Source: Polytrichum commune
Taxonomy: Eukaryota; Streptophyta; Polytrichopsida; Polytrichales; Polytrichaceae
Assembly: GCA_950295325.1 (NCBI GenBank)
Contig: OX485806.1
Location: forward strand, 49,843,169-49,907,168
DNA: 64,000 bases
Direction of reading: 5' to 3'
Shown here: piece after piece, positions 15,741 to 61,674 of the stretch
Position numbering within the stretch: the stretch's first letter is position 1
Layout of the letters: each line of letters begins with the position of its first letter
The notes under the pieces: model-generated
The model's database searches: none
The model's input: only the letters and a program-made list of their open reading frames with translations
Told to the model about the DNA's origin: nothing
Position numbers and translations under genes: made by a program

Positions 15741-18700
15741 TTAACAACCAAACATTCTAAGACGTCTCACCACAGTTTTTCCCTTTCGCTCCAAGAAATT
15801 TTTTTCTCGAAGAAGGCTAAACCCCCTGCTATCATTGACGGCTCGTAGCACTGGCGAAGCCACAAGTGGGTGAAGTGTTCCAGACTTCAAATTTGCTTTC
15901 AATGCTCGGACCCTACCCACGACTTGATTTAAATCTGCTAGAAAATGCTCCATGAGGACAATGTCCCCCATGACTTCTTCTGAGAGGTCTATAACCAATT
16001 GCCTCAAAGCTTCGTCGAGATCCTTTGACGAAACACTGGTCCAAACCGGAGTTTGCTTCGGGGTACATACCGGGGCAGTGTCAGGAGGAAATTGTGGATG
16101 ACCAAGCGGCGTAGAAGGGGTGAGGAGTTCTCTCATACCGCCTATGACGGTTTCAACATGTTTGCCACAGAAACGTGCAATTGTACCCTCAACAATATCC
16201 GGTCGAAGCATGAGCAGGACCTTCACAACATGCTTACATATATTCCCCCGTTGTGCCCAAACACAATTACACCCTGCCCATTCCTCTGCAGTATTATGCA
16301 CAATGTATCTAATGTGTCGGTGTCGGAAGAAGTCACTAAGGCATGGTTCCCTGGAAGCACATTCAGTGTCACGTCAACATCTGGAATGTCACGTGCCTTC
16401 ATCAGTGCTGTGACTACAAAATTTTGCATTTTTTTGTTGTCTATAAAACCATTTTCTTTCCGAAGGCCCTTATACCAGAAGTGGTCGTGCACTTCTTCCG
16501 TAAGAGCAGTAATAGTCCAATCTACACGTCTTCCAACCATGCGACGTCTCTCTGATTTTAACATTGACTTTAAAAACCCATGGTACCCTTCAATAGCTGC
16601 ATTCGTGTCCTGGCCAGCATAAGGTAGGTTCCGGTAACCTACCATCTACATGTGAGCCTTACTTTGCCATTTCTTTTGCATGTAATCCCAAAAGTTTTTT
16701 TCTTCAGGGTATTTTTTGCTCAACTTGTCTAGCTTATCTTTTGCCCAAGTTGTTGATTAAAAGCCACTAGGTGATGTCTTATCATACATCATGAGACCCA
16801 ACTCTTGAAGGACCATTGCACGTCGTACAATGTCTTTGATCTTGTAAGAAGAGTGTTTATGCCATGCACGACGAACATGCCACAAGCAAAGGAAAATTGG
16901 AGTTCCAGGCCACGTCTCTTTGAAACATGCCAAAGATCAACCATGTCAATGCGAATACATTTTTTGGGTAACGGCTTTCACAATGACATAAAATGGCATT
17001 AAACTACGAATATGAGATAAATGGGTGGAATATATGTCTGGAAGTGATTGACTAACTCATAGATGGAGTTAGAGTAACATACGTTAGTGCATTGATCTCC
17101 CCCTGCGCACAGTCCACAATGAATGCAGACGGTTTCCATTCTGGGCAAACTGTTTTCATACGTTGTTTCAATGATGCCATCCAGAGAGTGAGGTCTGCCT
17201 CCGTGCATTGTGAGGTGAGAATCCAGGCCACCGGAATTCCTTGATGCCATTCATCAAATACCATGAAGGTGTAAAGCGGGAACTGCAGAGATATAGTCAA
17301 TGTGAAGGTATGATTGGTTTGAGACACTATATAAATGAAGTAGTGTCACTGGTGCAAATAAAAAGTTAGTCACTCGCCAATTTGATTGTACCAATAAACA
17401 CTATCTTCAAATCATGCCTAGACACAAGCATATGAAAACATGTACAGAAGTGAACATACCTTCTTGTCATTAGTCCCAAACGTAGCATCAATGGAAACAC
17501 CTCCATTATGACCATATTTGGCCATTACCTCTCTTTGCCACTGTGTTTGTATTCCTATGGTAAAGGGCATGTTGGCCCCATTCAATTGGCCATTGACTTG
17601 GATGGGTGAGGCCAAATCAATCTCAGTATAGTGGAAGATTTTATCCGGATTCTTCTGGACCCACATGCGGACACTTTGAGCGTCGTTAGAGTGCAACATA
17701 TATGTTTCCCTTGCTAGCTTACTAGCAATGTTACGAATGTCTTTTGGGGTGATAAGTAAATCCCGTGTTATTTCTTTACCATCTGCCTCCCACTTCCGTA
17801 GAAATTTAAGGTGTTTCTTCATAATCTGGTGGATATTGTAACCCTCGTGCAAGCATCCATCAATGAATTCCTTCACAATTGGGGACAAATGGGCTGAGAA
17901 GGCACCACGGTCACCGAACTTCATTTTACCATGAACCATCAATCCATCCTTGTTGACATGTTTGAACTCAAAGATACAGATCTCTGAAATGTGAGGCGCA
18001 TGCAACAGGCTCTTGATCGTAAAATGTGTTGTGCACCCCCGTTTAATAGACAATCCCCACTTCTTCTGCGAGTCTCTTTATTTTGGTGGAAGAGGGACCT
18101 CTGTATTCTTGACGTGTGCATTACATTCATCATGTATTGCTCCTTCCGTCTTCTCATCTTCAAGCATTGGATTATTGTCGCTTGAGACAAATGCCCATGT
18201 GACCTCCGACGCAACGTCACGGTGCCTAAAAGTTTCGTTGTCCACAACACAAGATTTTGCACGGACTGAGGAGTCGATACAGTCAAGCACAATACAATCC
18301 AAAGAAACACTGCCAGAGTTCTTAAGGTCACCTCGACGAATGTAGTCCAACTCAGCTAAGGAGAACGTATGCTTATCCATGGTCGCCAAAACACTAGTGC
18401 AGGAAGTAGGGAATGTTGTAACACTGGGGTCGTCCAACGTGGTTGCCGAGACACTGCCACCATTGGGCCCATTTCGTAACGCATTACTAATTGCGTTAGA
18501 GGTAATAGAGTACACACTAATAGAAGCAATGTCACCTTGTGCAGACTTGCAGAGCACAGTGAGAAGGGATCCCAAACCCTGAAACATAGAATCCCCCTCT
18601 TTGCTCACATTGGCTTTGTGAATAATTTTTGCCACGGATGGCTTTCGCGAAAGAGGAGTATTTTTGGGGGACTTTCGAGCGGTTGCAGGTTTGTTGTCGC

Positions 18701-21105
18701 GACCCTTGCTAGTTTTTCTCCACTTAGCTCAATCGCTTTCCAACTCTAGCAAGTGTCCCGAGCGCTAACCTGCACATCCCACGCACATGCATGGTTAGCT
18801 TTCAAAACCGCGGACCTTCAATCCCATATTTGGTCACCAAACCCTCCTACACATGCATTCGGGACTCTTTCCCCTTAGTAGGTAACCCATCGCTAAGGTG
18901 GACTTCCATCCATGGAAGTCCACTCCCTACTTGGTCATAGTGTTGCTAGGACAACACTACAACCACCCGGAGCACATTGCCAAGTATGCTCCGGGGGGGT
19001 CGGTCGGCAAAGCCGCCTCACCCATATAAGCCTCTAGGACTTTTGGCGGGGCCCCTCCCCCACCGTCAACATCCCTTTTGTCTCTCTACCAAGAGTTGGG
19101 GCCAAGTAGACATTTTCCCTTAGCCGCTGGGTCTAGAAGCCTCCCTGCAGCTTCAGACCTTCATAACTTCCACGTGCGGTCTTTGAATCTAACAACCAAC
19201 CACTCTATCGTCATCTACATTTCACGTACATCCCTATGGACACCTCACTTGCCCTATTCGGGCAAGTATTGAGGAAGTTATGCCTGTTTAAGCCTTTGCA
19301 GTCCCGGGAGCCACTCCCAGGCCCCTGCTGTTCCAGGGCGCTGTCCCGGGACAGCATCCCACTCAAAGTGCCATATCTCCTAGCTCACACCTCAGATTGA
19401 GGTGTTCTTTAGCATTCTAGAATTGGGACGCCATAAGCTACTCATAGCTTATGGCTTTACCCTCATGACTCCTAGTCTTTGTGGGTGGGAGGCGTTCTAA
19501 ACGCCCGGGGCCCTCACCCACATTAGGATCACTTGGTCCCTCTCACCAATGGCGTCACAAGTCCCGGGTGTCACTCCGGGGTCCCCCTTGTGCCCATGGT
19601 GTTGCGGGCACTCCTCATGGAGAGGTGCGCGACATTTGTTGAGATCTGGAAGCTTCTTCTTCCTTGGGGTGCAAGTAAACCCGCAAGAGTCTGTAGCATT
19701 GTCTAGTAAAGGGTGAACTATGCATCCGTCACGTTCAGAAGACATGCATTTTCCTGCCTTTCACCAAGGGCTTCTTTGGCGGATCACTTTGGGAGGAAGT
19801 TTGAGCAGCAAAGGCCTCCCGGGGACGTCAATACCTGTATCTGCAAAGGCGGAGTTAGAATGTGGGGTCCCGTCACAGTGGCTATGAAGTGCAAGTCCGA
19901 TACTGTTGTTCAGTGGCGTTGTCTTGCATACAGGTTTTACATGCACCTGGCAACCATCCTCGTTATTTGGTGGAAGAGGAGAAATACTTTGACAAAGTGG
20001 GGTTCCGAGACACTGGATGTCATGTGGAATTTCCAATTTCTTCTTCCTTGGGGCCCTCTTTCGGACTGGTTTTGCAAGAACCTCATCACCATGACTATTT
20101 GGTACTGGAAAAAGGAAACCAATATCACCATGATCAACTCTGGAACATTGATTGTCAGGTACGACCACATCCTTTGCCTTGCAGGGAGTTTTTTTCCTAA
20201 CTGGTTTGGCATGCGCTTCAATGGGAGGATGAGGCGCTCCTGTGGCAGAACAAAAAGCCTCTGGACAATCACCTTCGTCAACAACCACGGCAGGTTTCTT
20301 ACAAGGTCCAATCTTTCTCCGTCTCAAAGTGACTGGCAGTTCTTCTTCAATAGAAGGATGCACATTGAGATCAAGTGTCACGGGAGACTTTATAGTGGCC
20401 TTAGCTTTTAAGTCCTAAGTTGGTTTCCTTTTTCCTAAAGGGCGACATTTTTTTGTGGGCAAATTCCTGGCGAGACATTATTGATCACTGCAGTGATCTT
20501 TGCAATGGAAATTTTTTCCGAGCTTTAGGCAAGAGATCAAAAGTAATATCTTTAACTATGTGGGAATAATCCTCAGGACCATACTCACAATGCCACCTGC
20601 GTACAAAAAAAAATCTATGAGAGTGTTACGAGAATGCAGAGACTGAAGTTCATTGCTTGAAACAAAGATGGAGCACTCACCGTGCAAAATCCATAGCAGT
20701 ACGTGGACCTTGTTTGGCGTGATCAGTTCGCTTGCGGTTCTCCTTTGTCCGTCGATACAAACATTGTGTTCCTTCTTTCCCGCATTGCATACCTGCAATG
20801 AAATTTGGCACACGATTCGTGGGAATATAACACTGTTGTACAACGGAATTGCGCCCATGTTTTCCACGACGGGCCTTAAATTCCAGCGCCCAAATGAGGT
20901 CTCTCCACCCAAACGTGGATGTTGGAGGGTGTTGAACGGAATGTTCAATGTTGGCAAGGATCTGGAGACCGAAGTCATCAAGTTTGGGCTTCTCCTGATT
21001 CTCAAAGTTTGTTCCAGAGTCACAGTCCACATCAACATTGACTCCAGTGGAACCCCCGGTAGCCATCTGACCATCATCTGGGGTACATGTTGTATCCACG
21101 CCCAT
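15741..21105 (-). pseudogene. MULE transposase (MuDR type, SWIM zinc finger), disrupted
   Basis: Catalyses cut-and-paste transposition in the nucleus. Inferred exons: 20681-21105 (starts MGVDTTCTPDDG; donor GTGAGT); a short one from 20596; a long one about 20414-17460, cut by a solo LTR; 17083-17282; and 16919-15741. The long exon has a basic Pro/Lys-rich N-terminus and a Cys-containing DNA-binding-like region (RGCTTHFTIKSLL), and ends with the first catalytic Asp (VSIDATFGTNDKK). The next exon holds the second (AFIVDCAQGE). The last exon has LCLWHVRRAWH, DTNAAIEGYHGFLK and the SWIM finger CNC...NICKH. Lesions: in-frame TAA at 18078-18080, TAG at 16646-16648, a frameshift near 16380 and a mutated acceptor (TTTCAA) before 16919. 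The gene is therefore inactive. Confidence 0.88.
18695..19634 (-). mobile_element. Solo LTR, family 1 (TGTCGC...GCGACA), inserted in the MULE transposase
   Basis: The ends are TGTCGCGACC and GTGCGCGACA, flanked by a perfect 5-bp duplication TTTGT (18690-18694 and 19635-19639). Length 940 bp, no internal retroviral genes. Dropping the LTR and one duplication rejoins the transposase frame as ...DLN-K-PATARK... on the minus strand, so the LTR is younger than the MULE. Orientation is taken from the sister copy at 25853-26779, where the coding region is on the minus strand. Confidence 0.93.
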
Positions 21106-25852: not shown

Positions 25853-26779
25853 TGTCGCAACCATTGCTAGACTCCTTAACAATCTCGCCAATTTTCATTT
25901 CTAGCAAAGGTTACGAGCGCTAACCTTTTCGCATTCCGCCATGCCAATGGTTAGCTCGTTCTACCTCAAACCTTATAGTTCATAGGAGGGGAACCAACCC
26001 TCCTACTTTATTTTTGGGACTCACCCCTTCATCGGTAACCAATCACTAGATGTGGACTTACATCCATGGAAGTCTAATCTTATGTTGATCATCGCATTGC
26101 CGGAACAACACTACAACAACCCGAACCATATTAGGCAACTATGGCCTCACAATGGGCCAAAGCCCATGGAGACCGTTCGGCCTCGGGTGGGTGAGGCCAC
26201 ACCACCTCACTCATATAAGCCTCTAGCACTCTACACGGGGCCCCTATCCCACCGCCAAGAGACCTTTTGTCTCTCTACCAAGAGTTGGGGCCAAGTAGAC
26301 ATTTTCCTTTAGCCGTTGGGCCTAGAAACCCTCAGTTGCTTCAAACCATCATGACTTCCTTGCATGATATTTGATGCAATAAAAAACCACTCCATCGTCA
26401 TCTACGCTTCACGTAGATGCCGATGGACTCCACATTTGCCGCATTCAGGCAAATATTAAGGAAGTTATGCCTGTTCAAACCTTGGCAGTCCCGGGAATCA
26501 TTCCCAGGCAAATTGTCATAACTCCTAGCTCACACCTCCGATTGAGGTGTTCTTGAGCATTATGGAATCCTCATGCCATAGGCTACGCATAGCTAATGGC
26601 TTTACCCTTGGTTCTCCTAGTCTCCGTGGGTGGGAGGCGTTCCCAATGTCCGGGACCCTCGCCCATACTAAGATCACTTGGGCCCTCTCACCAACGGTGC
26701 CACAAGTCCCAGGTGTCACTCCGGGGTCCCCCTTGTGCCCATTGCGTTTCGGGCACTCCTCATGGAGAGGTGTGCAACA
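25853..26779 (-). mobile_element. 3' LTR of element B (LTR family 1)
   Basis: TGTCGCAACC...GTGTGCAACA in the plus direction. The duplication expected for a solo LTR is absent (CAAGT on the left, CTCAC on the right). On the minus strand the bases just before the LTR are the purine-rich GGTGGGGGTGAG, as expected of a polypurine tract. This fixes the coding orientation of family 1 as minus for the copies written this way round. Confidence 0.7.
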
Positions 26780-28548: not shown

Positions 28549-29521
28549 TGTCGCAACCCTTGCTAGGTCCCTTAATAATCTTGCCAATTTTCAATTCTAG
28601 CAAAGGTTACGAGTCGCTAACCCTTCGCATTCCGCCATGCTAATGGATAGCTCCTCTTACCCCGGACCAATAGTTCATAGGAGGGAACCAACCCTCCTAC
28701 TTTGCTTTCGGGACTCACCCCTTAATCGGTAACCCATTTCCCCAATGTGGACTTCCATCCATGGAAGTCCAATCCTATGTTGATCATCGCGTTGCCGGAG
28801 CAACACTACAACAACCCGAACCATACTAGGCAACTATGGCCTCACAATGGGCCAATGCCCATGGAGGCCGTGCCGTTCGGCCTCGGGTGGGTGAGGCCAC
28901 ACCACCTCACCCATATAAGCCTCGAGGACTCTACACGGAGCCCCTACCCCACCGCCAACCAACCTCTTGTCTCTCTACCAAGAGTTGGGGCCAAGTGGAC
29001 ATTTTCCCTTAGCTGCTGGGCCTAGAACCCCCCAGCAGCTTCAGACCATCATAACTTCCTTGTATGATGTCTGATCATAACAACCAACCACTCCATCCTC
29101 ATCTACGCTTCACGTAGATGCCGATGGACTCCTCACTTGCCCCATTCGGGCAAGTCTTGAGGAAGTTATGCCTGTTTGAACCTTGGCAGTCCCGGGAATC
29201 ACTTCCACGCACTGCTGTACCAGGGCGCTGTCCCGGGACAGCACCCCACTCAAATGGCCATAACTCCTAGCTCACACCTCCGATTGAGGTGATCTTGAGC
29301 ATTCTAGAATCACCACGCCATGAGCTACGCATAGCTCATGGCCTCACCCTCATGCCTCCTAGTCTTTGTGGGTGGGAGGCGTTCCCAACGCCCGGGGCCC
29401 TCACCCACACTAGGATCACTTGGGCCCTCTCACCAACGGCGCCACAAGTCCCGGGTGTCACTCCGGGGTCCCCCTTGTGCCCATGGTGTTTCGGCCACTC
29501 CTCATGGAGAGGTGCGCGACA
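28549..29521 (-). mobile_element. Solo LTR, family 1, inserted in element B integrase
   Basis: 973 bp with TGTCGCAACC and GTGCGCGACA ends. Flanks are CAACC (28544-28548) and AAACC (29522-29526), a 5-bp duplication with one mismatch. The integrase sequence continues on both sides. The LTR belongs to the same family as element B's own 3' LTR and has the same orientation. Confidence 0.9.
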
Positions 29522-30330: not shown

Positions 30331-31014
30331 CGTTATCATGAGTTGGTTGTCTTCTTTGACAACCATCGAGCTTCATGCTCCTATATGCAATGGCCATCCA
30401 TCTTACATCAACAATCCGCCATTGGCAACGTCATTCACCTCCGTATACACCTCAAAAACTTTCTCGAACTCTACAAACTTGAGCACAGGCGGCGAAGAGA
30501 ACTTGGTCTTAAGCTCCCCTAAGACTTGGTGACAAACATCATTCCACTCTTCGGATAGCCATTCCTTTCACAAGTCGGACAAGGTCGGATAACCATTGAG
30601 CTTTATGCCCCTATATGCAATGGCCATTCGTCTTGCATCAACATCCGCCAATGGTAAAGTCATTCTCCCCTGTATGCACCTCAAAAGGTTTGTCAACCAC
30701 GAACTTAAGCACGGGCAACAAAGAGAACTTGCTCTTAAGCTCCTCAAACACTTGGTGGCAAGGCTCATCCCACTCTTAGGATAGCCATTTCTTGCACAAG
30801 CTGGACAAGGTTCGACAACCATCGAGCTTAATGCTCTCATATGCAATGATCATCCATCTTGGATCAACATCCGCAAATGGTAAAATCCCTCGCCTCCATG
30901 TGCACCTCAAAGTGTTTGTCAAAACCCGGGAACTTGACCACATATTGTGAAGAGAACTTGCTCTTAAGCTCCCCAAAAGCTTGATGACAAGGCTCATCCC
31001 TCTTTTGGGATAGT
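30331..31014 (-). repeat. Triplicated RNase H segment, period about 228 bp
   Basis: AACCAT(C/T)GAG recurs at 30361, 30591 and 30817. The block TCATCCCACTCTT.GGATAGCCA recurs near 30540, 30765 and 30995. On the minus strand each copy encodes a degraded form of the RNase H start (…FEVHT…DFTIGG…), so the polyprotein passes the same domain edge three times. Confidence 0.85.
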
Positions 31015-31400
31015 CATTTTTCTTTAACAAATTGAGGATGGTCCTAGGAACCTTAGAAAAATCTCTAATGAAGTGGTGGTAATAGTTGGCTAGGCCAACC
31101 AATGACCTAAGCCTTTTTGAGTCAAGGGCCAATTCTCCTCTTGGATTGCCTTGACATTCTTCATGTTCGTTCACCAACTTTATTTGTCACCACATACCTC
31201 AAGAACTTAATCTCTTGTTGAGTAAAGTTGCTTTCCACTCCTTGGCGGTAACATTTTGAGCAACACATTGGTGAATACATCTTTGTATCTCACCAACATC
31301 CCACAAATGTGATTTGGGGGATATCCATCTTTCCTAGCCTCCCCATGAGTTTGTTGGAGTTGCTCCAATTGAACCACGACCATTATGTTTTCTATTTTTC
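31015..31400 (-). pseudogene. Element B reverse transcriptase C-terminal fragment
   Basis: Contains RLRSLVGLANYYHHFIRDFS on the minus strand, the conserved RT thumb/connection block of Ty3/gypsy elements, followed by LNLLKKN. Upstream sequence loses similarity near 31,400, where integrase of the neighbouring element begins. Confidence 0.75.
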
Positions 31401-31422: not shown

Positions 31423-31910
31423 TCAACTTGGGTCCTCAAAAATACTGAGAAACTCCCTCCCTTGGCCCTTTAATACTTCGGTTGGTGCTCCAAAATGTGC
31501 CAACACACAATCCAAAAAGGCGGCCGCGGCCAACTTTGCAGAGTTTTGGGTTATAGCAACAAGCTCAATCCACTTGCTAAAATGCTCCACCATCACCAAC
31601 ACATACTTTACTTCACGTGGTGTGATAACCAATGGTCCTGCAAAGTCCAGCGACCAACGGTAGTCCAATCCCATAATAGGTAAGGGTTGTAACTAAGGTA
31701 ACAAGGTGTTAAAGCTAGACCTGACCCTGTCACAAATTTCACACCTCTTGACATAAGCAATCACGTACTGATATATGCCAGTCCACCAATATTGGCCACG
31801 TAGCATCGAATGTGTCCTGCGTATGCCAAAATGGCCAAGTTCCTTGTGCACTTGTCGCACCAAGGAGGCCTTCTGATCCGGTTTAGGGACAATACGCCTT
31901 GTCCCATTTG
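31423..31910 (-). pseudogene. Element C integrase (truncated)
   Basis: Minus strand: the HHCC zinc-binding module (HKELGH ... CEIC) near 31850-31730, then SLDFAGPL with the first catalytic Asp and YVLVMVEHFSKWIELV. The second Asp block reads LKGQGREF where an acidic residue is expected before QGREF, so that catalytic position appears lost. The frame ends at about 31,423 before the Glu motif, at the junction with element B. Confidence 0.8.
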
Positions 31911-31917
31911 ACCATAA

Positions 31918-32450
31918 TTAAAATAACAAACCGTTTTCCCAATGGAACCTTGTTATTCGATGTCCAATCCTATTCCTTTCCATTGCCGACGTAGACAAAA
32001 GAAAGGTCGCTTGCTGAAGCTTATGCAATACGGGAATAACCTCCCATATATCCGCAATAGCTTGAGGTCGATTAGTCTCATCATCCGAGCCTTGTATCGG
32101 AACCTCAATAGCCGCACCAGAAAATAAAGTGAGGTAATCAACCGCGTGCCAACCTGGAACCGCCTCTCGATCACAATTTCCATGCCACCTAGCCCTGGTC
32201 AAGTCATCATCCAAACGACCTGGATTGCGTGAGAGTCCATCTGCATCCAATTTGGTAATCCTAGCACGGTGCACCACCTCAAAGTCATACTCCTGGAGCA
32301 ACAAAGCCCACCTAGCGAACTTGCTTGTAAGCTTATCCGACTTCATGAGCCACCGTAATGGCCAATGGTCAGTTACCAAAGTAAAGCGCTGACCATAAAG
32401 ATATGGCCGAAAATGGGCAATAGCCCACGCCGCCGCCAATGTTTCTACTT
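31918..32450 (-). pseudogene. Element C RNase H
   Basis: Long open minus-strand frame with AAAWAIAHFRPYLYGQRF, TDHWPLRWLMKSDK, ARWALLLQEYDFEVVHRA and LDADGLSRNP, in the order seen in Ty3/gypsy RNase H. The first catalytic strand lies upstream of the frame and is damaged. It continues toward the integrase zinc region at 31,900. Confidence 0.85.
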
Positions 32451-32759
32451 CGTAGGACGAATAATTGGCCTTCGTCGTGTTATTGCTTCGCGAAGCGTAA
32501 GCAACAACATACTCCTAACCAAAATCAACTTTCTGAGTGAGAACTACTCCCAAACCCAATGAACTCCAGTCCGTCTACAACTGGAAGGATTTGGAGACAT
32601 CCGGACGTCAAAGAACTAGAGCCACACCTAGGTTCTGCTTCAATGTCTTAAATGTTTGTTGTTGCTCACAACCCCAGGTCCAAGTTTGGTCCTTGCTCGT
32701 CAGAATGGTGAGATGCTTGGGGATCAAGCTAAAGTTTTTGACGAATTAACTATAGTAAT

Positions 32760-33620
32760 TCACCAAGCCCAAGAAAACACGAAGTCTCGGCACATCAACC
32801 GGTGCCAGAATCTTTTGCAAGGCGTTCACCTTAGCTTACTATACTCCGAGACCTCCAAGAATAATCATATAACCTAGTTATGCTAGTCAGTCATGGAAAA
32901 ACTTGTACTTGCCATGGTGCAAACGCAATCCCCACCGCTGCAACTGCTAAAAAACGGCTTGCAGATGCCTTACATGCTCATGTGATGTCTTGTTGAAAAT
33001 GATCACATCATCAATGTAACACCGAGCAAAGGGCAAGCAAGAGAGAACTTGGTCCATCACTCTCTAAAACTCAGCATGTGCATTCTTGAGGCGAAATGGA
33101 AGAAACTTCCAATGATACAGTTGATCATTCCCATCATGATCAACTCCCCAGAATACGGTTTTCACTCGATCTCCCGCAATGGGAGCTAGTGATAGCCGGA
33201 TCTCAAGTTAGGGTGTTGAAGACCCGAGAAAATCTGATGGCATTGAACAATTCCTGCAGGATTGGCATGGGATACCGATCTGACTTAGTCTTCTGATTAA
33301 CTAGACGGTAATTCCCGCGCATCCATTTTTCCGTCCAATTGCCAAAGATACCCTTCTTCAATGGCATAACCGTAGCACAAGAATACTCCCCGTTTAAAAG
33401 TTTGATTAGCTTTGCTGCCAAAAGCTTTTGGCACCTAGCCTGAACGCCAATCCACTCGGAAACACTGAGCCTATAAGGTCTCCGAAAAATGGGATGGTCG
33501 TCCTGCAACTGAATGTAGATGGGTTTCCCTTTATAACCTTCAAGATCCTGAAGGCTAAAGCAAAACACCTATAGTACGAGCAAATAAACGCTCGTACTTT
33601 CCATGCCTCATCTCCAGTGA
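32760..33620 (-). pseudogene. Element C reverse transcriptase
   Basis: Minus strand. Palm/fingers blocks are seen as PIFRRPYRLSVSEW, AKLIKLLNGEYSCATVMPLKK and GNYRLVNQKTKSDRYPMP. The catalytic motif YIDD is encoded at 33008-33019, followed by FNKTSHEH. Several stops and shifts separate the blocks. Confidence 0.85.
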
Positions 33621-33784
33621 AATGAGGGCCTAATTCTAATGGTCAATCGTCAAACATTGTGGTCTCCCTCTCCACCAAAGGGGAGCCACTTGGTGCTAGC
33701 ACGGACTCTAACTGCTACTGAGAGGAGGGGGCATTAACCATGCCCCCAACCTCCATGCTAGCAATAGAGTCCGTCTCCTCTTTA

Positions 33785-35080
33785 TCACCACCAATATGTG
33801 ATGATGAAGCCACCTCCGCAGGTGAAGAAGCCAAAGCAGTAAACCCGATGATCTTGAAGCTCCTCCATCACATGTTGTTTGAATCGAAAGTTTCGTTTGG
33901 CTTCTCCAACCATGACCTTAATTCCCTTCTCTATGGATGTGGACCGTTGTGCCCCCTGACCAGAGTCTTCAGCCCCCAGAGACAAGAACTGGTCAATATG
34001 ATGTCATTGCAATGCAAGGCATAAATCAACAGTCCACACCATGGTATGAAGGTCCATGGCTTGGTCCAACACGAAACATCGTTGGCCCTTAGAAAGGCCA
34101 GGAGCAACGGTGGTGCTGGTGTGGAATCCCATGGCATGCTCACGTTCGCCAGCCAATGATTTGGTGTGAGCATCCCACACCATACCCAACCCCCGATCGC
34201 GGAATACGAATGACTGTGAAAATATCATGAAAGTGGGGAAGGCCCTCCGTGGTGTCGCCACTTTGTTGACCAATGCCAACGGAAGTAAATCATCTCAAAC
34301 CACTGGCAAAGAGGTTCAGTTTGGATACAAGATGTCATCCATTTTTTAATCAAAAGGTGGAGACACTGCAAAAAATATTACAATTAATATGGATAACGGT
34401 GCAAGGTTGGTCCAAATTCAACGAGTTCAGTGGGCATAAAAACCAATGCTCGCGACATCCACAAAAATGGAATCCCAATAAAGGTAAATTATCAAAGATA
34501 TATCCTAAAGGGGACGGTTGGTGGGCAAACCACCACTGCATGAGCCGGATGAGGGCCCAAAATAGACTAGACCGGGGATCCTCTAGGCCTCGGCCTGCTC
34601 CAGCACGGGAGTGGCCCTAGCATGGCCATCCCGCGATCACTACATCCACTGGACCCAAGTGTTACAAGTTTTCCTCACTAATAAGTATAACATCATGAGG
34701 GAAACATGCAAAACACCCACAAATAGCAGTTGGGTGTAACTGTTGTGGGTACAACACCATCAACTGGTGGAAATGGTGGCAAACCACACAGGTGGACACG
34801 TGACTGTTGTCCACATAAACATACTGTCGAATTGTGAAGCCAACCTCTAACACGGCCGCCAATCCCATTCCAATGCCCCCAAAAACTTCCACAAAAGTAA
34901 TCCCCTTGTTCGGAGGGCGCCACACAATGGGATGTGCCAACGCCGAGGGCCTAGCCGGTATGACCGGCGTCGTAGAACCGAGAGAGAGTATAATATCCTC
35001 ACATCGCAGGAGTAGCTCTGTGAAATCACGCCAAGGAGGAAGAGGATCTTTGGGATGACACACCAATGCACTTTAAGGTG
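33785..35080 (-). pseudogene. C5-cytosine DNA methyltransferase-like domain within element C
   Basis: Would transfer a methyl group from S-adenosylmethionine to cytosine C5 in DNA. In one minus-strand frame from 35066: motif I FVEVFGGIGMGLAAVLE (SAM binding), then YVYVDNS, then motif IV VDVVIAGWPC (nucleophile Cys), then GRGLEDPRSSLFW and motif VI-like GYIFDNLPLLG (consensus ENV). A further block, REHAMGFHTSTT then QAMDLHTMVWT (34279-34004), fits the C-terminal motifs. The G-x-LF-type stretch after motif IV recalls the DNMT3/DRM branch rather than DNMT1; that is inference. Lesions: TAA at 34662-34664 and TAG at 34617-34619, replacing the residue after Pro-Cys. The domain sits between protease and RT, where Ty3/gypsy elements normally have nothing. 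Confidence 0.85.
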
Positions 35081-35239
35081 GCATCTCCCATTGATCCTTA
35101 GCACTCCCCATAAATGCCAAAGACTCCTCCAATAAAACCATGGATAATGGTACTATGGTAGGGGTAGCCACAAATGCCACATGAATAAATTCCCTGCGGC
35201 CATCCCCAGTCGACCAACCTGGTCGGATCCACGCCTCCT

Positions 35240-35530
35240 CAATCTAGTTGTCCATACCAAAACCGAGAGGATAAAGTGATTGCTGACCAACTAAAATATC
35301 GTAGTTGGTCACCTATGTTACCGCACACATGAGAATAGAAGGTACGGGTGGATCTCTAGGCTGTAGTGGCTCCCGAGTATAAGTAGTGGCCCGCTCCACG
35401 TGGCCAATGGATGTGATGATAATAAATGGGCAAAGAGCCAAGTCATTGGCCATCAACCACAGATTTGGCGTAAGTTTTTTTGCCAATCATAACAAGTTGT
35501 ACCCCTGAATTCATCATCACACATTGGGGA
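35240..35530 (-). pseudogene. Element C aspartic protease region
   Basis: Minus strand, broken by stops and a shift. NSGVQLVMIGKK stands where the retroviral-type DSG/DTG active site is expected, with Asp changed to Asn near 35,510. It is followed by LALCPFIIITSIGHVERATT and a NYDILVGQQSLYPLGF block, which suits the later strands of a retropepsin fold. Confidence 0.6.
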
Positions 35531-35580
35531 GCAACTTGAATTGTGTTGCCCCAGTTCGACTGTCCACCAAAATACCGAAA

Positions 35581-37435
35581 TCATTCATCATACGTACAAC
35601 GCCAGGTCGAATGCCTCAACGCTCGCGAGCTGGTCGAGCAGTTACAACTGAGAGATAAGTTGCGCCCCCAAAGCTGGTGAATCATAAGATGAGGTTGGCT
35701 CTTGGCCATCCAGGCGTGTGCGTCAAAAGATGCAATGGCCTCCACTGCAAGCCTCGCTCGCTGTCTGGCCGCCTCCATGGACCCTCCGTGGCAAGAAGGT
35801 CAGCGGTGGCTTGAGCCATAGTCAGAGAAGATGGGGGTGCCTTTCCTTCCAAAATCCTACATGCTAAATGAAAAACCTTAGCTTGGATGCCAGATGACGA
35901 CCACCCCATCGCTGTGAACAAAAATGTGTGCAACACTTTGGGTTCCAAAGTGTGCATCACGTCAATCGCTGGATTCAAAGCCTCCAAGCTTGAATTACGA
36001 TCATTGATAGATTGGACATCATCTGCCAATCCAAAAGACGATGACAGACATGTCTAGCAATATGATCCGCGGGAGTATTGCCCGAGCTTAAAAGCTGTCT
36101 ACCGACCCCCCATGTGGTCGAAGGTGTGGCTCATGACACGGATTAAACACGTATCGCCGCTGCCGAACTCATCACCTCCCCTGAGGCTTCGAACATATAA
36201 AAAATGTGGAGTGGAAAAACTAGCCTGAGCTCCGGAATAAGACAATGAATCCAAAATTTGGCCGGATGACGCCAAACTTTTGAACCTATCTTCCAAGGCT
36301 CCAATCTTTGCCTCCAACATTTTTTTCTCGTTCGGAAGAAGACGTTTATATGGATGGAGAGCAAAGTAGTTTTCCATTGCATGATTGTTCCGCCCACAAT
36401 GGGAACACTTCAACTGCTTGGGTAAATGATTATCCGCCCCTTCCGTCGAATTCTTAGCGGGAACAACTAGTTTCCGCTTTGGATTACCTACTATATGGAC
36501 ATTTCTTTGTTTCAAAGGACAATCCTTCTTAGCATGGCCCGCCTGCCCACAAGACCAACAATATAAGCTCTTGTCCACCTCTGCCGCTGCCAGTCATGTA
36601 GTCGCAATCGGCACCTTTCGGGATTTGCTTGAATTCACTAGCAAGAACACCAAATCAGTGGTATCGTGTTGACATAAGACATGATCACACTACTCCACAA
36701 CGGCGAAAGCCTTTGCAAGTGTGGCCCGACCACCATAATCCATGATGATCCTAGGTAGAGCTAAGTCAATGAGGCATTTGTCAATCTTTGACAAAAAGAC
36801 CTTCACAAATTGGTTTTCCGCGAAAACACCTTCAGATTCCGTGGCAAATCTCGCCAACCTTGTGGTACGAGGTGTATCCTCTTTCTCCCACCGGAAGTCT
36901 TTGATCCACTGCATTTAATCTCGATGAAAACCTCCATATTGCTTCTCTAATTGAAGCTAGAATTCCTGTAGAAGATCAAAACCAGGCGGAGCCCCTCAAG
37001 AGGCTAATGCCGCTTGTGTAGCCTTGACATAGGGGGAGAGTAAGAAAATCGAGTTTGACGAACTCGCGGATATGAAAGCATGAACGTTTTCTTGAGGTTC
37101 ACTAAGAACGGTTCCGCTCCACGTGGCCAATACGTGAGCGTTCTCCACTTGTTCCGTCTTCACCATAAGAGGGGCTAATAAACTAGAAGCCACACCGTCC
37201 TTGACCTGGCGTAGCACCATCCAATGAGCGTCCCTCCATTATTCACAAGTCTGGAGCGCCTCGTGCTCCAAATGTTGGAGCAAAACTTGAATGCATATTT
37301 GTCATTAAAACTGGAATTACGTTGACGTTTCATTTGCATCCACATCGTAAATCGAATTTTCCAGTCTTGCAGGAAAATGGTCCATGCCCGACCGGAAAAC
37401 CTGTCTCGGACTCCACCTCGCGTCTCGTCTTCCAT
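35581..37435 (-). pseudogene. Element C gag (capsid region and zinc knuckles)
   Basis: Minus strand, several frames. The capsid-like part (36914-36690) has WIKDFRWEKEDTPRTTRLA and FLSKIDKCLIDLALP. The nucleocapsid (36578-36100) has a canonical CCHC knuckle CWSCGQAGHAKKDC and a second one, CSHCGRNNHAMENY, in which the last Cys is Tyr. A segment of unknown role (36029-35581) links to the protease. Confidence 0.8.
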
Positions 37436-37650
37436 ATTGTCAAAAGTCCCTACCTCAAGGACGTGAGAACGCGTGGTAGTCCCCTAAACCGAAGTAGGCT
37501 GAAAATCCTCGTCGGTTGCTACCACTGGTTCAACGTCTAAGAGGTCCGATGATTAATTTTTCGATGCTCTTGGAGATGGCGAATGATAATGTTGGCTCCG
37601 AATCGTAACCATAAACCCACAATGAATATGATGACTAGAGCCAACAACCT

Positions 37651-37668
37651 ACATTACTCTGGTGTCAA
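37651..37668 (-). promoter_or_regulatory. Putative primer-binding site of element C
   Basis: Directly inside the proposed 5' LTR the minus strand reads TTGACACCAGAGTAATG. This matches the initiator-tRNA-Met type TGGTATCAGAGC allowing transitions. It supports the LTR end at 37669. Confidence 0.45.
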
Positions 37669-38080
37669 TGTAAAACAAAAAAATTGAAAAATACAACATG
37701 CACCTACAATCATTACCAATCTTATGAATTGTTGGTCATTACTCCAGCCTCATTATGAGGGAATATAATCACCGCCCACTTGGTGCACACACAAGGGTCT
37801 CGTCGGTAATGACTCCGACCTTACCCGTACAATACCTATCACAAACTAATACACCACAAAACGGGCAAGTTGGCAATTGCCAAGAATACAACCGGCCACG
37901 GGGAAAGGTACCACGACAAAATACAAAACTACAATAGATTTGTTAAAACTAAAAAGACATATCAAGTACAACAAATAAACACAACAAGCCTACAATCAAT
38001 ACACCACAACACCGAGGTGACCACAACATGTCATACCCAATTAACTGCAACCCCTGATTATAAATAATGGCTAGATCACA
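37669..38080 (-). mobile_element. 5' LTR of element C (putative)
   Basis: About 412 bp, minus strand from TGTGATCTAGCC to TTGTTTTACA. It has TG/CA ends, an AT-rich TATTTATAATC TATA-like motif near its start and a primer-binding site directly inside. Without a second LTR, the outer boundary is an inference. Confidence 0.45.
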
Positions 38081-60369: not shown

Positions 60370-61070
60370 CCCACTTGTTCCGACAATCTCGACGGGTGAT
60401 CCACCTGCAAGTGCATTCTCCCGGGTTTGTAATCATACTCCTCTAGCAGCAAAACTCATCGTGCTAATCTACCGCTCAACTCTGGCTTGTTTACCAAAAA
60501 CTTAATCGCCATATGGTCCACAAAAAAAACTAGTGGATTACACAGCAGGTATTGACGGAATAGCCAAGCATTTCATTTACGTGGTGGAATAGTTACGCTC
60601 GGCCATGGTCAGTTGCCTACTAGCGTATGCCACTGGTTGATCATTTTCCATTTCTCGGCTAGGCTGGCAGAGGGCACTACCTACAGCCACCGCACTGGCA
60701 TTATAAAATACGTGGAAATGAATGCTCCAATTCGGGGGCACTAAGACCGGATACGTGCTTAGGCAAGCCTTTAGCTCTCCAAATGCTTTCTCACACTCCT
60801 CCGTCCACTCACACTTCGCGTCCTTCCTAAGCAGCTTGGTGATGGGAAGGGCTATCTTTGCGAAGGAAGGGATCAGTACCCTATACCATCCCACATGCCC
60901 CAAGAGCTTAGCTATACCTTTAGCGTTCGTGGGTGCCTCCAATCTTTCGATCACCACAATCTTGTCTGGATCAGGATCCCTCCATTTTTTACTCACCACG
61001 TACCCCAACAACACTTCTCTCCGTACTGCCAAGTACGTTTTTTCGTACATATCGGAAGATATTGTGGCAT
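60370..61070 (-). pseudogene. Element D reverse transcriptase end and RNase H
   Basis: Minus strand. GYVVSKKWRDPDPDKIVVIE, TNAKGIAKLLGHVGWYR and PITKLLRKDAKCEWTEECEK cover the RT connection. VAYASRQLTMAERNYS and FFVDHMAIKFLVNKPELSGR cover RNase H, closing with RMHLQVDHPSRL. The blocks differ clearly from those of elements B and C, so this is a third gypsy lineage. Confidence 0.85.
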
Positions 61071-61186
61071 CGACACTTCTCCAAATCTTACATTGTTCAC
61101 TTTAATCTTTCCACCATCAAATATGCATCCATCACTTGTTGTACGGATGTCGGATCTTATATCAACACCTCCCGCAACACTCGTTC

Positions 61187-61674
61187 TTATAAAGATTGAA
61201 GAAAAATCCCGATAATGGTATTTTCTTCAAGTCGAGCCGCGTCACATCTATCTTTAACCAATTTGAACCTCCGCACAAACTCCGCAATCGTCTTATTCTC
61301 TTTTTGTTTCAATTGTAACAACATGATAAAAACACCACGTTGATCTACGACTGTTTCAAATTTTCTTAAAAACGTGTATTTAAGAGAGGCCCACATAGGA
61401 AATGAAGCGCTAGGATTGGACCAAAACCATTCAAGCGCCTTACCCTTCAAAGTAGAAGAAAACCATAGTAATGTATAACGATCATTGTTAACCAAACTCA
61501 TAACAACGATATTAAAAAAAAATTGAACATGCACCCTTGGATCTTGGTTTGGATTTCCATCGAATGATGGAAAATGAACTTAAGCGTAGCGTACGGAAGA
61601 CCCACCGGTTGTATAACAGGTAGTGTACTCATTATAAGTGTTATCGGAGGTGGATTCGGCGGTTGAGACGCCAT
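61187..61674 (-). pseudogene. Element D gag
   Basis: Minus strand, ATG at 61674 (MASQPPNPPPITL), then a frameshift. The capsid part has LLWFSSTLKGKALEWFWSNP, KYTFLRKFETVVDQRGVF and LKQKENKTIAEFVRRFKLV, a typical Retrotrans_gag layout. It stops at 61187, only about 120 bp before RT, so nucleocapsid, protease and most of RT have been deleted. Confidence 0.8.

Follow-up and report, generated by a model that had tools for sequence, protein, structure and literature searches.

A predicted DNMT3-type cytosine methyltransferase in a split-repeat, Gypsy-type retroelement family of the moss Polytrichum commune

The stretch of DNA considered here (the window) comprises 64,000 nucleotides of the moss Polytrichum commune (contig OX485806.1; G000:C4:49843169-49907168 in our numbering), in an assembly of 407.8 Mb carried nearly whole by seven contigs (C1-C6, 364.0 Mb in total, and C7, at least 38.9 Mb). 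An earlier note, made from its letters alone, had proposed that a Ty3/gypsy polyprotein on the minus strand carries a C5-cytosine DNA methyltransferase. Homologues, alignment, and comparison of sequence and fold support this: the domain is best read as a C5 cytosine methyltransferase of DNMT3 type inside the polyprotein of a Ty3/gypsy-type element. The polyprotein is a property of the family, which codes the DNMT within it; the window copy, with its stops and frameshifts, is a dead, truncated, old relic of this abundant plant retroelement family and cannot encode a DNMT enzyme. The family, of about 10 kb, has young copies elsewhere in the genome.

Cytosine methylation is a main mark for transposon silencing in plants. 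Because the better-preserved relatives carry a DNMT domain of their own, a new copy may mark its own DNA with the host's silencing signal. The question of why a transposon would methylate itself, so far published for algae and dinoflagellates, now reaches a genome of land-plant type; this reach rests on an abundant family, young copies and the family's own methyltransferase, predicted to be of de novo type.

The profile check proposed in the earlier note fails on the window pieces alone: run separately against Pfam, they give no significant DNMT match (the best is PF00145, E 0.15, 11.9 bits against a cut-off of 22). The doubt this raises is removed by the homologues, which match PF00145 above the cut-off: 5/10 and 9/10 of those scanned in two sets pass, as do copy E5 of the moss genome (46.1 bits) and L002 (45.9 bits). 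The latter is a contig (CADCWO010000201.1; 9285 bases, 127-base terminal overlap) deposited in the cyanobacterial metagenome bin AVDCRST_MAG81, where it is probably contamination, that is, a misbinned eukaryotic element. In a protein search, the open 136-amino-acid piece of the window has 34 relatives with E<=1 in a set of 49 candidates, and the best of them is 74% identical (E 3.1e-60). By an alignment search, in which 8000 candidates were scored, 254 proteins reach E<=1 (120 of the 254 listed). In five of these proteins (P0015, P0025, P0036, P0044 and P0103) a protease-end stretch, recognized by eye as Y-LVG-LYP-GF, is in frame with the DNMT, and the fragment P0049 continues from DNMT into integrase. 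The homologue matches and the alignment place the domain where the earlier note had it, between protease and reverse transcriptase.

By both sequence and fold, the element DNMT is nearest to DNMT3. Its motifs are in the canonical, unpermuted order I-IV-VI-VIII-X, not in the order of DRM, in which VI-X precede I-IV, and the predicted fold agrees with DNMT3 over nearly the whole catalytic domain. Structures of DNMT1 and CMT are not among the fold and sequence match lists, which by itself shows nothing. A DNMT tree of 46 rows, made by a quick method and having several long branches and unsure deep joins, groups the window with P0043, P0066 and others, next to the L002 group. A tree of motifs I-VI gives the host DRM-like piece a branch length of 6.5 changes per column, and does not settle the source of the element DNMT.

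The DNMT region of the window runs on the minus strand from about 34910 down to 33840, in two parts. The first (34473..34910), identified by protein matches and alignment, contains motif I (FGGIGM, 34883-34866), the Pro-Cys of motif IV (GWPC, with PC at 34625-34620) and a motif VI remnant (FDNLP, with DNL at 34493-34485, where ENV is expected); a TAG stop (34619-34617) stands right after the Pro-Cys, in place of the Q of PCQ. The second (33839..34504), identified by alignment, contains a motif VIII remnant, motifs IX-X and a linker; the first Arg of RxR is replaced by a stop (stop-x-R), and P0066 matches 34474-33899 at 71% identity. Motif I, the Pro-Cys and the motif VI-like block do share one minus-strand frame, as the earlier note had it; for the C-terminal motifs (REHAMGF..., and LDQAMDL from 34069 down) 'one frame' was wrong, because the reading frame shifts near 34474.

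Other copies of the domain, which the note had proposed to look for, are plentiful. Every one of the 150 own-genome matches scored with the 136-amino-acid piece, the window included, has E<=1.7e-46 (438 first-look candidates); 13 lie in open frames of 1347-1372 amino acids, and 11 of the 13 are stop-free inside the match. A second subfamily has frames of 1386 amino acids. Distinct own-genome copies compared number 39, of which 23 belong to subfamily 1 (window included; L003, at the same place, is counted with it) and 16 to subfamily 2. The copies with intact PCQ and ENV that the note had envisaged are the rule: PCQ is present in 38/39, ENV in 32/38 and RxR in 35/38 of the copies covering the site. 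For the family reverse transcriptase there are 1559 candidates in the genome, and the 150 scored are 85-91% identical to L002; a DNMT lies upstream in 10/10 loci hand-picked down that list, all of subfamily 2. With PF00145 itself, 123 of 353 candidates were scored and all exceed the cut-off; 120 of the 123 start at profile position 44-49, as the element does. The remaining three include a host DRM-like methyltransferase locus (L051, G000:C2:4703000-4705000), with permuted motifs as read by eye.

The structure of the element was taken from nine subfamily-1 copies (E1-E9) and, for the ends, also from three copies of subfamily 2 (F1-F3). E1-E9 are nine of the 13 long-frame copies; two with the score of E2 and two with an internal stop were left out. 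The order is A1 - leader - ORF1 - UAG-CAR-YYA - ORF2 - B1-A2-B2, where A and B are terminal segments and ORF1 and ORF2 are open reading frames in the same frame. ORF1 codes for Gag with zinc knuckles, protease and the DNMT3-type domain; ORF2 for reverse transcriptase, RNase H, a DDE integrase and a PHD finger. From its first ATG, ORF1 has 1341-1361 amino acids, with PCQ and ENVP in 9/9. It ends CAT TAG CAA TTA in seven of the nine; E4 and E7 are lesioned earlier but show the same TAG CAA TTA further on. ORF2 is in frame with ORF1 in 8/9 (the exception is E7), and is interrupted in the piece viewed in E2, E3 and E9. TAG-CAR-YYA occurs in 22/22 resolved subfamily-1 copies, including the window (TAG CAG TTA), and in 12/15 resolved subfamily-2 copies; L002 has TAG CAA TCA. 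The sequence CAR YYA after UAG is given as the requirement for readthrough of the tobacco mosaic virus type, with 32% measured in one plant reporter system (PMC2754532). A PHD finger is found in all nine copies, E1 and E6 each being without one metal ligand; in L002 ORF2 and the E5 C-terminus Pfam gives this finger and no chromodomain. The order Gag, protease, reverse transcriptase, RNase H, integrase, the DDE integrase and the short target duplication are those of Ty3/gypsy elements, with protease matches that stay below the Pfam cut-off.

L002 has the same plan: Gag-protease-DNMT in one frame, TAG, then reverse transcriptase-RNase H-integrase-PHD in that frame. With the DNMT part of L002 as query, 30 of the 8000 proteins scored have E<=0.001; 14 of the 30 (P0126-P0134, P0136-P0138, P0140 and P0141) are frames of 1252-1451 amino acids with a zinc-knuckle motif, PCQ and ENVP. 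The named relatives are from the liverworts Marchantia polymorpha (P0145, P0146, P0147, P0149 and P0150) and Calypogeia fissa (P0143). As in the moss family, gag- or protease-type sequence precedes their DNMT in the same frame; compared at the protein level, the liverwort proteins are 44-49% identical to L002 over the DNMT region and form a separate branch of the DNMT tree. In the more distant proteins P0153, P0154 and P0155, similarity to the DNMT occurs together with integrase and PHD; P0153 has its DNMT between RNase H and integrase. The viral contigs searched gave only one unrelated phage-type methyltransferase (L001), and no match for the reverse transcriptase.

Selection was gauged by nonsynonymous to synonymous rate ratios (dN/dS), as Nei-Gojobori medians with pairs at dS<=0.03 or saturated left out; dS above 2 is near saturation, and values between groups are therefore rough. 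For the DNMT the medians are 0.26 within subfamily 1, 0.14 between subfamilies and 0.10 against L002. Within subfamily 1 the reverse transcriptase gives 0.11, RNase H-integrase 0.31 and gag-protease 0.27; against L002 the first two give 0.04 and 0.03, and gag-protease is saturated. These ratios indicate purifying selection on the DNMT in most comparisons.

Domain order, catalytic motifs, leaky-stop context, repeat layout, target duplications and selection, all read from sequence, fit an account that we consider rather likely: the DNMT is made with Gag, is packaged and methylates the cDNA, so that the insertion arrives methylated. That is, most ribosomes would stop at the amber codon, yielding Gag-protease-DNMT, and a minority would read through in the plant, adding the polymerase part; because most would stop, the DNMT would be made with Gag, in excess over reverse transcriptase and integrase; it would enter the particle with Gag; reverse transcriptase would copy the RNA, with the internal B1-A2 stretch as a template bridging the two ends; newly made double-stranded cDNA would be methylated by the DNMT, with CG sites the most likely targets; the integrase would trim the ends and insert the DNA, duplicating 4 bp of the target; the PHD finger might help to choose chromatin; and each new insertion would arrive already methylated. 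As to the benefit, de Mendoza et al. suggested in 2018 that pre-methylated cDNA could escape sensing or deamination (PMC5890265). We lean weakly towards another benefit, a quiet insertion that is for that reason tolerated, since the family has many copies and its young ones remain well preserved.

Several observations weigh against this account. The subfamily-1 copies used for structure were picked for long frames, and five of the nine (E2, E3, E4, E7 and E9) have a lesion in ORF1 or the ORF2 part viewed. Not every member of the wider family has the leaky stop: P0148 and the annotated Marchantia protein P0147 (a gene model, which may be spliced) run from DNMT into reverse transcriptase without a stop. 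The window copy shows neither repeats nor PHD. DRM2 aligns over motifs I-IV only, so the preference for DNMT3 over DRM is partly a coverage effect. Within subfamily 2 the DNMT ratio is 0.52 (25/28 pairs, range 0.24-1.05; 8/16 copies), which is weak evidence for constraint; against L002, reverse transcriptase and RNase H-integrase are more constrained than the DNMT. Finally, KnitGypsy-Dnmt3 of the alga Klebsormidium nitens, the published precedent, did not methylate yeast DNA, a result that its authors call inconclusive (de Mendoza et al. 2018, PMC5890265, section 10).

The slower-evolving reverse transcriptase, the ratio in subfamily 2 and the yeast result would also suit a DNMT retained for something other than catalysis (binding nucleic acid, spacing Gag or sequestering SAM, for example), or carried as a passenger, with methylation not its function. 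The same may be said of Glu in place of Pro before the catalytic Cys in the distant retroelement DNMTs P0148, P0153, P0154 and P0155. We think this improbable, given how well PCQ, ENV and RxR are kept in the genome, the medians of 0.10-0.26 within subfamily 1, between subfamilies and for subfamily 1 against L002, and a predicted fold that matches DNMT3 nearly throughout the catalytic domain.

Still less probable is an enzyme that modifies RNA (genomic RNA, primer tRNA or an RNA:DNA hybrid) and not finished DNA. The known tRNA enzyme of the C5 methyltransferase class is DNMT2, and it matches the element DNMT at only 10.9 bits (E 1.6); the sequence and fold are DNMT3-like. What speaks for RNA is that a Gag-side domain would be packed with it, and that RNA methylation is proposed for elements of the LINE type by de Mendoza et al. 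(PMC5890265).

The termini set the family apart from plain Ty3/gypsy elements. The element starts TGTCAYG and ends ACACGACA (F2 has two candidate starts, of which alignment to F1 confirms the one used). A1, of about 334 bp in subfamily 1 and about 440 bp in subfamily 2, is repeated near the 3' end as A2, between B1 and B2 (106-110 bp), with A1/A2 identity of 98.5-100%. The layout A1...B1-A2-B2 is found in 8/12 copies (6/9 of subfamily 1 and 2/3 of subfamily 2); the remaining 4/12 end after B1. A perfect 4-bp target duplication flanks 12/12 copies. In those without A2-B2 (L013/L014, L015/L016, L025/L026 and L054/L055) the duplications are likewise perfect; such copies represent either an integration form or later B1-B2 recombination. 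At the B1-A2 junction, GC stands between the two end sequences in 8/8 copies that keep it, and in L002; end trimming is proposed because this GC is absent from the integrated ends. In the genome the exact 20-base junction is counted 138 times, against 0 for its reversed control.

It might be supposed that these are ordinary long terminal repeats (LTRs): A2B2 would be the full 3' LTR, and a deletion in a founder copy would have removed the B part of the 5' LTR. A2B2 does run TG...CA like an LTR, and the element has a DDE integrase and 4-bp duplications. We nonetheless consider this improbable: deletion in the 5' LTR leaves the additional B copy before A2 unexplained; the layout is shared by both subfamilies, with 138 exact junctions, and the independent contig L002 has the same junction; and elements start flush at A1 beside the target duplication. 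The two identical flanking LTRs of Ty3/gypsy elements are absent and the split direct repeats of PAT/DIRS elements present; the Ty3/gypsy element of the earlier note keeps its Gypsy-type domain set and yet is no plain one, because its terminal repeats are split direct repeats. The tyrosine recombinase without target duplication that goes with PAT/DIRS elements is not found, the integrase being of DDE type (rve 1.2e-13) with duplications at every copy examined. Nor was room for a recombinase seen in E5, the one copy scanned: on the element strand its leader has a single frame of 89 amino acids, and its tail has no frame that reaches 70. No initiator-Met primer site was seen next to the repeats in the window and L002. 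The presence of a DDE integrase alongside split direct repeats is relevant to the mechanism of such repeats.

The earlier note knew of no standard plant family with this layout; the type does have its precedent in KnitGypsy-Dnmt3. As described (PMC5890265), that element shares the Gypsy-type domain set, an unrearranged DNMT3-type domain in the polyprotein and reported purifying selection on it; a figure legend gives it a DIRS-type repeat structure with Gypsy domains, which fits the split repeats here. It differs in that its DNMT is described inside the Pol frame, whereas the moss DNMT is on the Gag-protease side of the amber stop; the term PHD was searched for in its main text and not found. 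No Klebsormidium-labelled protein is among the matches listed in the three protein searches (120 of 254 in the alignment search). A 2025 paper classes streptophyte DNMT3 elements as LTR Copia (PMC12344493). SymbioDIRS-Dnmt3 of dinoflagellates also has a DNMT3-type domain in a retroelement polyprotein, one for which CG de novo methylation in yeast was shown, and belongs to an unrelated class, DIRS, with a tyrosine recombinase (PMC5890265). PAT, kangaroo and Ngaro have the A1...B1-A2-B2 split direct repeats; they too use a tyrosine recombinase, unlike the moss family with its DDE integrase and 4-bp duplications (PMC4157794). A Gypsy element of Phalaenopsis has also gained an enzyme acting on nucleic-acid marks, in that case an AlkB RNA demethylase in an additional frame (PMC9289625). 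Chromoviruses likewise have a Ty3/gypsy integrase with a chromatin-reading C-terminal domain, a chromodomain where the moss family has the PHD finger. Among the open-licence PMC papers listed, none was seen to describe the land-plant family, a PHD finger in a gypsy integrase or readthrough in elements of this sort; PHD did not turn up in PMC6317226 or PMC3350952 when these were searched for the term.

One might imagine a single old lineage, a DNMT3-armed, PHD-tipped, split-repeat gypsy element, persisting from streptophyte algae to mosses and liverworts, appearing to supply nearly all scored methyltransferase-profile matches in this genome, delivering pre-methylated cDNA and setting its methyltransferase:integrase ratio by a leaky amber codon. 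We offer this only tentatively; if true, split direct repeats with a DDE integrase would be a distinct route of replication and integration, not an accidental hybrid. Natural controls exist in the two subfamilies, in the relatives in the model liverwort Marchantia and in a different gypsy element of the same window.

The relic extends on the minus strand over 31433..37926, keeping leader, gag, protease, DNMT, reverse transcriptase, RNase H and part of the integrase. Pieces of E5 match it by blastn at 74% (37926-37642), 77% (37624-34473), 82% (34478-33719) and 87% (33717-31433); the terminal repeats and the integrase C-terminus with PHD finger have no match in the window by this comparison. The gag nucleocapsid remnant (36099..36593), with zinc knuckles CWSCGQAGH and CSHCGRNNH, was recognized by Pfam (zf-CCHC, E 6.3e-5) and alignment to L002 ORF1. 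The stop-broken protease remnant (NYDILVGQQSLYPLGF..., approximately 35270..35540) was recognized by alignment; matches to P0036 and P0015 start at 35366 and 35312 in the frame of the first DNMT part, and the L002 homologue gives Asp_protease_2 at E 7.8e-4, under the Pfam cut-off. The element's own amber codon, in its readthrough-type context at the ORF1/ORF2 border, is at 33709..33717. The ORF2 N-terminus and the first part of reverse transcriptase follow in two frames (33209..33684, by tblastn with L002 ORF2), then the remaining reverse transcriptase, RNase H (RT_RNaseH, 1.7e-23) and integrase core (rve, 1.5e-9), ending inside the integrase (31433..33180). Over the parts aligned to E5 there are 40 in-frame stops; deamination as their sole source is not supported, since C>T or G>A changes by themselves would turn E5 codons into 21 of the 40. 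That the sequence is a host methyltransferase gene or domesticated copy, as its methyltransferase motifs and missing terminal repeats might suggest, is highly improbable, given gag, protease, reverse transcriptase, RNase H and integrase of one family flanking it in order, the frameshifts and stops, and the other motif order of the host DRM-like locus.

The rest of the window holds further repeats. At 60387-61579, on the minus strand, are parts of the different Ty3/gypsy element (RNase H 1.7e-20, Retrotrans_gag 2.6e-12), 35% identical to L002 ORF2. Frames at 15741-18728, also minus, have a SWIM zinc finger as their only profile match (E 0.0022, below the cut-off); we take them to resemble a MULE-type transposase. 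A direct repeat of some 730-780 bases (26050-26779 and 28745-29521) falls into four segments of 86-94% identity at a spacing of about 2.7 kb, and within 30414-31018 a segment of about 226 bases is repeated in tandem, with 61-80% identity between copies, which by eye look like reverse transcriptase/RNase H remnants of another element.
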